Source of the DNA: Candidatus Nanohalarchaeota archaeon
Lineage (GTDB): Archaea; Nanohalarchaeota; Nanosalinia; Nanosalinales; Nanosalinaceae
DNA: 64,000 bases
Assembly (NCBI GenBank): GCA_022729235.1
Contig: JALDAJ010000001.1
Location: 1-64,000 of the forward strand
Direction of reading: 5' to 3'
Position numbers and translations under genes: made by a program. Every line of letters begins with the position of its first letter. The first letter of the stretch is position 1. Shown one piece after another: positions 36,000-39,939 of the stretch. The notes beneath the pieces are model-generated. The model ran no database searches. It saw nothing but the letters and a program-made list of their open reading frames with translations, and was not told the origin of the DNA.

Positions 36000-36164
36000 A
36001 TACAAATTAGACGATTTTAAGAACTATTATAAAGATTTCCAATCGTTTAAACTGCTTAAAACCGTAACAACTTCAAGAATTATTGTTTCTTCTTCCTGCT
36101 TTTAAATATTGCTTTACTCCAGTACACTATTCCTGATTTAAGATTGTCCTCTCCCAGGTACCCC

Positions 36165-36581
36165 ATGAACCTCCACAACCTCAAAAAAGGAGACAGAGTA
36201 CTCTTCAACCAGCGAGAAATACCTCTTGAAGTATCTGACGTCGATGAGAACCGGGTACATGTCAAAGGTCCTAGAGGCGGAGAGTACATCCTGTTCCCTG
36301 CTGAAAACGACCCGGAACTTCTGCTGGTGGCGAACAAAGGCTCCCGGGAATACGCGTCAAAGGTCGAGAACCTTAGAGAAGTAGGCGAGTGGAAGAAAAC
36401 GGGTGAAAACAAATGGAGACACTCGAAGTCGAGTTGCGAGATAAATCTCATTAAGAATGATGCAGGCTTCTGGACGATAGAAACAGCGCTCGAGATAGAC
36501 CTCCCTAAATACGGCTATTCAAGTAAAGAAATAGCCGTAGAAGAGATAGAACAGCTTATAGAGAAAAATCCTGAAGGATGA
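36165..36581 (+). CDS. Hypothetical protein with SH3-like N-terminus
   Basis: From the ATG at 36165 the protein has 138 residues (a TTG at 36144 is also in frame). The first part is SH3-like: NLKKGDRVLFNQREIPLEVSD, then VHVKGPRGGEYILFP. The second half is a small domain with WRHSKSSCEINLIKNDAGFW and a C-terminal helix. A TTTTAAATATTG box near 36099 lies about 60 bases upstream, suggesting a leader. No family identified. Confidence 0.55.
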   Translation: MNLHNLKKGDRVLFNQREIPLEVSDVDENRVHVKGPRGGEYILFPAENDPELLLVANKGSREYASKVENLREVGEWKKTGENKWRHSKSSCEINLIKNDAGFWTIETALEIDLPKYGYSSKEIAVEEIEQLIEKNPEG

Positions 36582-37000: not shown

Positions 37001-37972
37001 TTACTCGATATGCTCAGTCAGGTTTTCAGGCACATCTTCGAGTCCTAGCTCCTGCACGAACTCACGGCTCCTCTGCCTTAAAGTAACAGTTGTGACATCC
37101 AAGACATCTGATATCTCTTTCATCGTACGGTCTTCTCCCTCCGCATAAGCTGACAGGTAGAGAGCGCTTGCGGCAAGTCCCTTGGGAGATTTACCGGATA
37201 TAAACTCCTTCTCATGAGCCTGCTCCAGTAACTCCTCTGCCTGTTCACTGGTCTCTTGACTGAGATCTAGCTTTTCCACAAACCAGTCCAGGTACTCTCC
37301 GGGGTGTGGCGGTATTATACGCGCATCTGTATTCCTACCTATGAACCGGTAAGCCTTCCCAAGCTCTCGCTGGGGCGCACCTGTGATCTCAGATATCTCC
37401 TCCAGCGTCCTCGGCTCGTCCTCTTCCCTTGCCACGATATATACCGTTGCGGCAACAACATTCCGCAGTTCTCGCCCTCTCATCAAGTCCCTATCATGCA
37501 GTTCTTCAAGAAGATTTTCCGCCCCTTCCTGGACCTCCTGCGAAAGCTCCAGTTCCGCAACCAGAGTCTGTAGAGCCTGTAACTCATACGTATGCCTGTC
37601 CTTAACCTCCGGAAGCCAGCGCTCTACTCCTTCATACTGTGGACGAGCAAAAACCGTAAGTAACAATCCTGCAACAAGCAGAGGCAGTGAAAGACCGATA
37701 GCAGCGAGCCCTGCGACGGACGCCTCAGCCGGGACAGAAACCTCTCTTATATCTCTCTGCCTGGCTGTCCTAATACTGAAGAAAAGCAGGGAGAAAATAG
37801 CTGAGAAGGCAATGAATTCTGTAGCAAATACCGCACCCGTACTGCTGAAAAATACAGATCCAAAGCTGAAGAACCTGCTGAAAACCATCCCTGCAGCTAG
37901 AGCGATTACACCGTATTGCACGCAGAGACTGCCCATACTCCGCCAAGCCTCAAGCTTGTTGTCATAGCCCAT
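37001..37972 (-). CDS. Membrane-anchored TFB-like protein (TM helices plus two cyclin repeats)
   Basis: Residues 124-312 are the cyclin-repeat core of transcription factor B. Repeat 1: LMRGRELRNVVAATVYIVAR, RTLEEISEITGAPQRELGKA, YRFIGRNTDARIIPPHPGEY. Repeat 2: EFISGKSPKGLAASALYLSA, DRTMKEISDVLDVTTVTLRQ with a helix-turn-helix. The zinc ribbon and B-finger of TFB are missing. In their place are three hydrophobic segments (about 15-35, 45-68 and 84-109), with a basic loop RTARQRD between the second and third. The protein therefore looks membrane-bound. It is expressed alone. A role in DNA tethering, a TFB-derived membrane receptor, or a sequestering factor are all possible. Confidence 0.8.
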   Translation of the reverse strand: MGYDNKLEAWRSMGSLCVQYGVIALAAGMVFSRFFSFGSVFFSSTGAVFATEFIAFSAIFSLLFFSIRTARQRDIREVSVPAEASVAGLAAIGLSLPLLVAGLLLTVFARPQYEGVERWLPEVKDRHTYELQALQTLVAELELSQEVQEGAENLLEELHDRDLMRGRELRNVVAATVYIVAREEDEPRTLEEISEITGAPQRELGKAYRFIGRNTDARIIPPHPGEYLDWFVEKLDLSQETSEQAEELLEQAHEKEFISGKSPKGLAASALYLSAYAEGEDRTMKEISDVLDVTTVTLRQRSREFVQELGLEDVPENLTEHIE

Positions 37973-38148: not shown

Positions 38149-38421
38149 ATGACACTGTACGAGTTCTACGGCGATGGCTGTACTCACTGTAAAACCATGG
38201 CTCCAAAAGTGGAAAAACTCGAGGAAGAAGAAGGCATAGAAGTCGAGAAACTTGAAGTCTGGAACGACGAGGAAAACCAGGAAAAACTCAAGGAACTCGA
38301 CGACGGCAGATGCGGCGGAGTACCGTTCTTCATCAACACGGAAAGCGATGAATGGATTTGCGGAGAAGCAGACTACGAAACACTAAAAGCCTGGGCGAAC
38401 GGCGAAGAAGTCGAGAACTAG
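38149..38421 (+). CDS. Glutaredoxin/thioredoxin-like protein
   Basis: The 90-aa protein has the redox site C11-T-H-C14 right after the first strand (LYEFYGDGCTHCKTM), and a cis-Pro loop in GGVPFFINTES. An extra Cys pair occurs as RCGGV and WICGE. The fold matches the thioredoxin superfamily. Downstream are a CxxC mini-protein and a disulfide oxidoreductase in the same direction, suggesting a thiol-redox operon. A TTTTTATACTAG box lies about 35 bases upstream. Confidence 0.85.
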   Translation: MTLYEFYGDGCTHCKTMAPKVEKLEEEEGIEVEKLEVWNDEENQEKLKELDDGRCGGVPFFINTESDEWICGEADYETLKAWANGEEVEN

Positions 38422-38434
38422 GAGGTGAACTTTG

Positions 38435-38533
38435 ATGAGCGATAAAGACGAGGAAGACGACAAGGTCTGCAGAACATGCGGACCCGGTCTCGGAGACGAC
38501 GACCTCGAAGAGGATGAAGAAGAGGAAGAGTAA
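38435..38533 (+). CDS. 32-aa acidic CxxC mini-protein
   Basis: A perfect Shine-Dalgarno run GGAGGTGA (38421-38428) lies 6 bases before the ATG, overlapping the stop of the previous gene. The frame encodes MSDKDEEDDKVCRTCGPGLG and then an acidic tail. One C-x-x-C pair could bind metal as a dimer or take part in thiol exchange. Its strong ribosome binding site and place between two redox genes make it a likely real gene. Confidence 0.62.
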   Translation: MSDKDEEDDKVCRTCGPGLGDDDLEEDEEEEE

Positions 38534-38577
38534 GTATAAGAAACTAGCCAAGGATTTCTCCACAACGGAGATCACCG

Positions 38578-39939
38578 ATGGAAGAATTTGACCTAATAGT
38601 TATAGGAGCAGGTTCAGGACTGGAAGTCGCAAACGCCTACGCACAGCGCGGTAATGAGGTCGCGGTTGTTGAACCCGGTCCTCTCGGAGGTACATGCCTG
38701 AACAGGGGATGTATACCCTCCAAGATACTTATCCACCGCGCCGACATCATAGAAGAGATTAATGGTTCAGAAGAGTTCCACATCGACGCGGAAGTAAACG
38801 ATATAGAGTTCTCCGAGATAATTGAAGAAGTCAACAAAGAAGTAGCGGAGGACGCTGAAGGTATCGAACGCGGAATCGAGAACTCAGATAACCATGCCTT
38901 ATACCGGACAAAGGCTAAGTTCGTGGACGAGAAAGTCCTGGAAGTCGATGGAGAGGAGATAACCGCGGACAAGATAGTAATCGCCGCAGGTTCAAGACCG
39001 CTCATCCCGCCTATCGACGGGGCTGAAGCTGTTGACTACCTAACCAGCAAGGAGGCGCTGGAACTGGAGGAACAACCCGATGATATGGTGATAGTCGGCG
39101 GAGGATACATCGCTCTGGAACTCGCGCATTTCTACGATGCTGTAGGAACCGAAGTAACGATAATAGAGATGGCTGAACAGCTCCTGTCAAGATCGGATCG
39201 CGACGTCTCGGAAAAGATAACGGAAATCGCCTCGGAAAGATTCGATGTGCACCTGGGGTATGCTGCCTCTGAACTCGGTGAAAGAGACGATGGCCGCATA
39301 GAGGTTACAGCCGAAAATGAGGAAGGTAACGAGAAGTCATTCGAGGCAGACGAGGTATTAATCGCGGCAGGAAGAGTCCCGAATACTGACGAGTTACAGG
39401 TCGAAGAGACCGGTATCGAGACCACGGAACGTGGTTTCGTAAAGACCAACGAGTACCTGGAAACGAATATAGATGGGCTATACGCACTGGGCGATATCGC
39501 GGACAACTGGATGTTCAAGCACTCCGCCAACCTGGAGGCAGAATACGTCTACAAGAACCTCGTGACCGGTAACAACTACAAACTGGAACAAGAAGTCATG
39601 CCGAGCGCCGTTTTCTCCAGTCCGCAAATCGCGGCTGTAGGAAAGACAGAGCAGGAGCTGGAGGAGTCTGATACGGATTACGTCTCCGCAACATACCCTT
39701 ACTCGGATACAGGTATGGGCATGGCGCTAAAAGAAGAAGACGGATTTGTCAAGGTGCTGGCCTCGGAGGACGGCGAAATACTGGGTTGCCACATACTCGG
39801 TCCTGACGCCTCCACGCTCATCCATCAGGTTATCGTGGCGATGACCTCAGGTTCGGGAACTGTCGACGATATCAAGGACACGGTTCACATACATCCTGCA
39901 TTGAACGAAGTAGTAGAGAGAGCGTTCCAGAAGCTGTAA
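38578..39939 (+). CDS. FAD-dependent pyridine nucleotide-disulfide oxidoreductase
   Basis: The 453-aa flavoprotein has the GAGSGLEVA FAD motif, the redox disulfide GGTCLNRGCIPSK (C40, C45), the NAD(P) motif VGGGYIALELAHFY, the GDI-type second FAD motif (ALGDIAD) and the C-terminal HPALNE with H439 and E444. It could be a dihydrolipoyl dehydrogenase, mycothione-type reductase, or the haloarchaeal bis-gamma-glutamylcystine reductase. No 2-oxoacid dehydrogenase genes are near, and the redox neighbours favour a low-molecular-weight thiol role. This last point is inference. Confidence 0.88.
   Translation: MEEFDLIVIGAGSGLEVANAYAQRGNEVAVVEPGPLGGTCLNRGCIPSKILIHRADIIEEINGSEEFHIDAEVNDIEFSEIIEEVNKEVAEDAEGIERGIENSDNHALYRTKAKFVDEKVLEVDGEEITADKIVIAAGSRPLIPPIDGAEAVDYLTSKEALELEEQPDDMVIVGGGYIALELAHFYDAVGTEVTIIEMAEQLLSRSDRDVSEKITEIASERFDVHLGYAASELGERDDGRIEVTAENEEGNEKSFEADEVLIAAGRVPNTDELQVEETGIETTERGFVKTNEYLETNIDGLYALGDIADNWMFKHSANLEAEYVYKNLVTGNNYKLEQEVMPSAVFSSPQIAAVGKTEQELEESDTDYVSATYPYSDTGMGMALKEEDGFVKVLASEDGEILGCHILGPDASTLIHQVIVAMTSGSGTVDDIKDTVHIHPALNEVVERAFQKL

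Follow-up and report, generated by a model that had tools for sequence, protein, structure and literature searches.

What does the core of a basal transcription factor do once it has been joined to membrane helices in a single polypeptide? The question is raised by a gene in the window analysed here, a 64,000-nucleotide stretch of a 1.03 Mb, single-contig Nanohalarchaeota genome. The gene (37001..37972, minus strand) appears in the list of open reading frames with an ATG start and encodes a protein of 323 aa, which we term TM-TFB; four other genomes (G006, G010, G016 and G020) encode proteins built in the same way, with three hydrophobic segments preceding a TFB core that lacks the zinc ribbon. 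Residues ~110-312 constitute a full two-repeat TFB core. The Pfam TFIIB family (PF00382) matches this core twice (2e-38), the best PDB matches are 1d3u/1ais, structures of Pyrococcus TFB in complex with TBP and DNA (residues 128-311, 1e-37), and the same structures are again the top two entries when the AlphaFold2 model, with a pLDDT of about 92 over the core, is used in Foldseek. These searches recovered TFB alone, which rules out another cyclin family for the C-terminal half, and both TFIIB-type cyclin repeats that the original prediction had placed at residues 124-312 are indeed found there. Pfam, PDB, Foldseek and a comparison of alignment columns delimit the first repeat to residues ~128-212 (37337..37591, minus strand), including G166-R167, R182 and a PRT motif, and the second extends over residues ~223-312 (37037..37306, minus strand; best Pfam stretch 224-307; PDB and Foldseek agree). 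Within the second repeat, columns shared with 98 soluble TFBs define a helix-turn-helix at residues ~283-304 (37061..37126, minus strand) with the recognition segment VTTVTLRQR. The NCBIfam model for TFB (PRK00423) matches at 6e-49, albeit only over its positions 126-309 of 312 and with a score far under the full-length cut-off, which indicates that the core only is present.

The region ahead of the core (residues 1-108; 37649..37972, minus strand) is kept in all five genomes, and its ~108 residues match no Pfam family. Hydropathy analysis recovers three 19-residue segments scoring >1.6, at residues 13-31, 47-65 and 89-107, in agreement with the transmembrane helices that had been predicted; the hydrophobic stretches as a whole extend over about 14-31, 46-67 and 86-107, with a basic loop at 68-77. 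Their number is less firm: hydropathy counts three, whereas AlphaFold2 models helices at 3-36 and 47-71 and splits the third stretch in two (80-91 and 95-108), the block pLDDT over these N-terminal helices being low (44-73). The CxxC...CxxC pair of the zinc ribbon was not found in any of the five orthologues, and alignment with soluble TFBs places hydrophobic sequence where the B-reader (the WRAF...STEIG region) would be. This bears out the initial view that a TFB core has been joined to membrane helices and has lost the parts which recruit polymerase. Only the final part of the B-linker of soluble TFBs, with its W/R region, aligns with TM-TFB (W119 and R126). It falls in a conserved linker, YEGVERWLPEVKDR (residues 113-126; 37595..37636, minus strand), which lies between helix 3 and the core, has the form YxG[VI]E[RK]W and includes Y113 and W119 as invariant positions in 5/5 TM-TFBs. 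A single chain hence combines a DNA-binding-type domain, the HTH-containing TFB core, with three hydrophobic segments, and no extracellular sensor domain was detected in the N-terminal halves. Separate production of a soluble core from an internal start is unlikely, as residues 81-140 hold just one in-frame ATG/GTG/TTG, a TTG at 103 that lies within helix 3.

The TM-TFB gene is found in five independent Nanohaloarchaeota assemblies from two families, the second of which contributes one genome, and is missing from most of the phylum: a profile of the membrane half gave exactly five strong matches among 28 genomes, a set that covers the order and, in this sampling, the entire phylum. Among 394 archaeal genomes no credible further member of the membrane half was recovered outside these five. 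None of the ~130 other TFBs inspected, divergent archaeal paralogues included, possesses an N-terminal helix pair, and the intact ones have a zinc ribbon or ribbon-like cysteines. An Aenigmatarchaeota protein (L072) matching from residue 12 proved to be a canonical ribbon TFB. Weak N-terminal matches in G022, G008 and G229 were treated as noise, given that stops interrupt the reading frame in both G022 and G229 and that the G022 match is seemingly an unrelated four-helix protein. A horizontal or viral origin was rejected: no phage matched TM-TFB, no match in viral contigs was confirmed, and the plasmid matches listed are haloarchaeal and Thermococcus TFBs that align from residue 110 on, i.e. 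to the core only.

The fusion has a single origin. Two core trees of archaeal TFBs only, one with 104 rows and one with 49, each unite the five TM-TFBs in a single clade, with support of 99/92 and 99/96, respectively; in the latter analysis the clade recurs in 100% of bootstrap trees. Its sister, with support of 100/100, is a soluble TFB of 287 aa from G023 (L007:1271-2134), which keeps the zinc ribbon (CPSC...CAEC), lacks the B-reader and has no membrane helices. The expectation that membrane helices and cyclin core always occur together accordingly holds within the TM-TFB clade but not beyond it, the closest relative outside being soluble. A fragment (L175, G020:C47) is of the same soluble B-reader-less type, and G020 appears to carry this form together with TM-TFB. 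These soluble proteins share with TM-TFB the short linker (YSGIEKW) and a serine at 302; they differ in having the ribbon, in being devoid of helices and in retaining E295 and Q284. The existence of a ribbon-bearing, reader-less soluble sister suggests a stepwise loss that preceded capture by the membrane, and in the simplest path a duplicate of TFB lost the B-reader, the ribbon was then swapped once for membrane helices, and losses of the gene followed. The soluble type itself is a possible evolutionary intermediate and an unusual initiation factor in its own right.

Judging from substitution rates, purifying selection maintains both halves of TM-TFB. Between G010 and G016 the N-terminal half has a dN of 0.28 and a dS of 1.63 (dN/dS about 0.17), and the core, with a dN of 0.15 and a saturated dS, has a lower dN/dS than the membrane half. 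The membrane half is the faster-evolving part, with 17-28% identity between genera versus 39-53% for the core. A patchy distribution, in 5/28 genomes of the phylum, is what might be seen if the gene were a product of faulty annotation or assembly, or a pseudogene in decay. Nevertheless, the stop-free frames in five independent assemblies, which by themselves rule out a gene-start or assembly artefact, their grouping in a single clade, the low dN/dS in both halves and a synteny marker common to three genomes render this explanation very improbable. The N-terminus is accordingly real, as the same one is carried by the four further homologues.

We took as reference for the promoter-binding surface the 45 core columns with conservation of 95% or more across 98 soluble TFBs; TM-TFB keeps 34 of them and has lost 11. 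Retained positions include G166-R167, R182, P187-R188-T189, V296, T297, R299 and R301, and the TBP-side residues of the core are largely preserved. As we read the alignment with human TFIIB, V296/R299 correspond to V283/R286 and G166/R167 to G153/R154, residues that we take to contact the BREs. The DNA-contact residues of repeat 2, whose conservation had been raised as a check on the prediction, give a divided picture: V296 (or I), T297, R299 and R301 are kept in 5/5 orthologues, but E295 has become T and Q284 M or L in 5/5 (here E295T and Q284M), A288 has become S in 4/5, and Y302 is replaced by S, T or G (here Y302S), the last change being common to the soluble sister. In the 323-aa protein the GPT at 262-264 is also changed to SPK. 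This pattern suggests that DNA binding has been retained with a changed preference, and the recognition-helix changes together with one at Q201 make weakened binding possible. The clade-specific loss of near-invariant recognition-helix residues (E295T, Q284M/L, A288S, Y302S/T/G) and of all RNAP-facing modules would also be consistent with a protein-interaction or chromosome-tethering module that anchors TBP, canonical TFB or DNA at the membrane with no promoter-specific regulation. We regard this as unlikely, since a pure scaffold should have drifted at V296/I, T297, R299 and R301, which are instead kept in the five orthologues under purifying selection.

TM-TFB is not the only TFB of its genome. 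There are two more, both with a zinc ribbon: one of 381 aa at 759463, which is canonical by the tree, and one of 317 aa at 961468, which falls in a fast-evolving paralogue group. TM-TFB hence coexists with a canonical soluble TFB. A second, fast-evolving paralogue group of soluble TFBs with a ribbon (L003:1486-2439 and its relatives L158-L169) occurs in most genomes of the family, with 1-2 copies in each. TBP, where found and contig-end fragments aside, is encoded by one two-repeat gene per genome, which implies that any TBP-dependent action of TM-TFB shares its TBP with the canonical TFB.

We give about an even chance to the interpretation of TM-TFB as a membrane-tethered TFB core, a transmembrane one-component regulator whose effect would be mostly competitive or repressive. 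The helices would hold the core on what is predicted to be the cytoplasmic side of the cell membrane, where it could bind the single TBP of the cell on TATA/BRE promoters, probably with an altered BRE preference. In archaeal TFB, binding to the BRE lies with repeat 2, and it is through the ribbon, which attaches to the RNAP dock, that polymerase is recruited (PMC7289017). As the first of these parts is present and the second absent, TM-TFB should occupy promoters together with TBP without starting transcription. Having neither ribbon nor B-reader, it would be incapable of recruiting RNA polymerase itself, and the promoters it bound might either be blocked against the canonical TFB or be held until a putative membrane signal alters the anchor. 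That a membrane-bound DNA-binding regulator can work in archaea is evident from ArnR (PMC6396743).

The largely retained TBP-side residues would also suit a tethered positive factor, which directs TBP, the canonical TFB or TFE to selected promoters or assists in trans. However, a TBP-DNA site has room for a single TFB core, and occupancy by TM-TFB should exclude the canonical TFB from it. Sulfolobus TFB3 offers a precedent, being a non-canonical TFB that activates, but it is described as working alongside the canonical TFB, through a mechanism that is poorly understood (PMC7289017). We therefore attach little weight to a positive role. Another alternative is a latent soluble factor, with an S2P or rhomboid protease, which cleave within the membrane, or a processing protease cutting near the linker and freeing the core to reach promoters, as happens with transcription factors that are stored at a membrane. 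The conserved YxG[VI]E[RK]W stretch between helix 3 and the core would be a suitable place for such a cut, and genes for M50 peptidases and rhomboids are found in 4/5 and 5/5 TM-TFB genomes, respectively. Yet such proteases are also present in 14/14 control genomes and are hence little informative, a freed core would still be without ribbon and reader, and none of the five neighbourhoods contains a conserved adjacent protease gene; release by proteolysis is thus improbable.

Comparison of the five neighbourhoods also recovered no conserved operon partner for the tethered regulator that we favour. Downstream of TM-TFB lies a gene with a YgaP-like two-helix membrane domain (PF11127; 36607..36912, minus strand), which is not conserved beside the other TM-TFBs and is therefore probably no partner. 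The gene for an uncharacterised 145-aa protein with no Pfam match (36144..36581, plus strand) serves as a synteny marker: its homologues, present in 20/28 Nanohaloarchaeota genomes, lie near TM-TFB in 3/5, which fits vertical descent. On the other side and divergent from TM-TFB is a redox pair (38149-39939, plus strand), in which a thioredoxin/glutaredoxin-like protein precedes a pyridine nucleotide-disulphide oxidoreductase and which was not found beside the other orthologues. In both g11 genomes a small two-helix, cysteine-containing membrane protein (L006:1152-1391, L008:2531-2863) is encoded directly upstream of TM-TFB, possibly in one operon with it.

The weakest link of the membrane-tethered regulator reading is topology, as simple counts of charged residues allow the core to lie on either side. 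Summed over the five orthologues, K+R number 15 in the N-terminus, 3 in loop 1-2, 7 in loop 2-3 and 8 in the 15-residue stretch that follows segment 3. Under the positive-inside rule, such a distribution favours an inside location for the N-terminus and loop 2-3, and with three full spans the core would then end up on the outer side. Just two arrangements would bring the core inside. One is N-out with three spans, which is plausible for G010 and G016, as the GTG start of each may lie too far upstream. The other is a re-entrant third segment, weakly suggested by the AlphaFold2 model, which breaks this segment at 92-94, beside a GLSLP motif (pLDDT 64-67). Selection on the DNA-binding residues, in turn, argues for a cytoplasmic core.

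TM-TFB resembles archaeal TFB/TFIIB in its two cyclin repeats and repeat-2 HTH, with about 30-45% identity to soluble archaeal cores, and departs from them in lacking the ribbon and B-reader, in its N-terminal helices and in its recognition-helix changes. A working TFB is defined in part by its ribbon and B-reader; since TM-TFB has neither, we classify it as a transmembrane regulator derived from TFB rather than as a TFB. Sulfolobus TFB3, which unlike TM-TFB is soluble, presents the opposite condition, as it keeps the ribbon and is without the BRE-binding HTH. It too is a divergent TFB paralogue, and it cannot replace the canonical TFB (PMC7289017). Regulators of the ToxR/CadC type and ArnR of Sulfolobus likewise carry membrane helices on the same chain as a DNA-binding domain; they use a gene-specific HTH and mostly 1-2 helices, whereas the output domain of TM-TFB is the core of a basal factor. 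If tethered, TM-TFB would fit the definition of a transmembrane transcription regulator (PMC10269533; PMC6396743).

The original statement that no described system of this kind was known is too broad, in that membrane-spanning regulators of transcription are reported to be common in both bacteria and archaea (PMC10269533; PMC6396743, for ArnR) and that a plant TFIIB-family protein, pBRP1/AtBRP1, resides on the cytoplasmic face of the plastid envelope and is detected in the nucleus upon proteasome inhibition (PMC7865254). The plant protein differs from TM-TFB as a eukaryotic factor on an organelle surface, and nothing suggests a common origin of the membrane trait. We know of no membrane-spanning helices in pBRP1/AtBRP1. 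TFB/TFIIB is not mentioned in the main text of PMC10269533, and literature searches of open-licence papers found no report of a membrane TFB or of membrane helices joined to a TFB core. Both transmembrane regulators and divergent TFBs have been described separately, and what seems to be new is the use of a basal-factor core as the DNA-binding part of a membrane regulator.

The lineages with TM-TFB have very small genomes and probably live as ectosymbionts on other archaea, with haloarchaea as their hosts. A more speculative proposal, rather less probable than the tethered regulator, is that a general transcription factor has here turned into a membrane receptor: signals at the envelope, perhaps contact with the haloarchaeal host, would directly gate basal promoter complexes with no intermediate regulator, through competition of TM-TFB with soluble TFB for the single TBP. 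If the core does bind promoters in the cytoplasm, TM-TFB would represent a basal factor anchored in a prokaryotic membrane, joining the state of the envelope to promoter occupancy in one protein, and its history would trace a stepwise route from basal factor to signalling regulator, through loss of the B-reader and subsequent replacement of the ribbon by helices.
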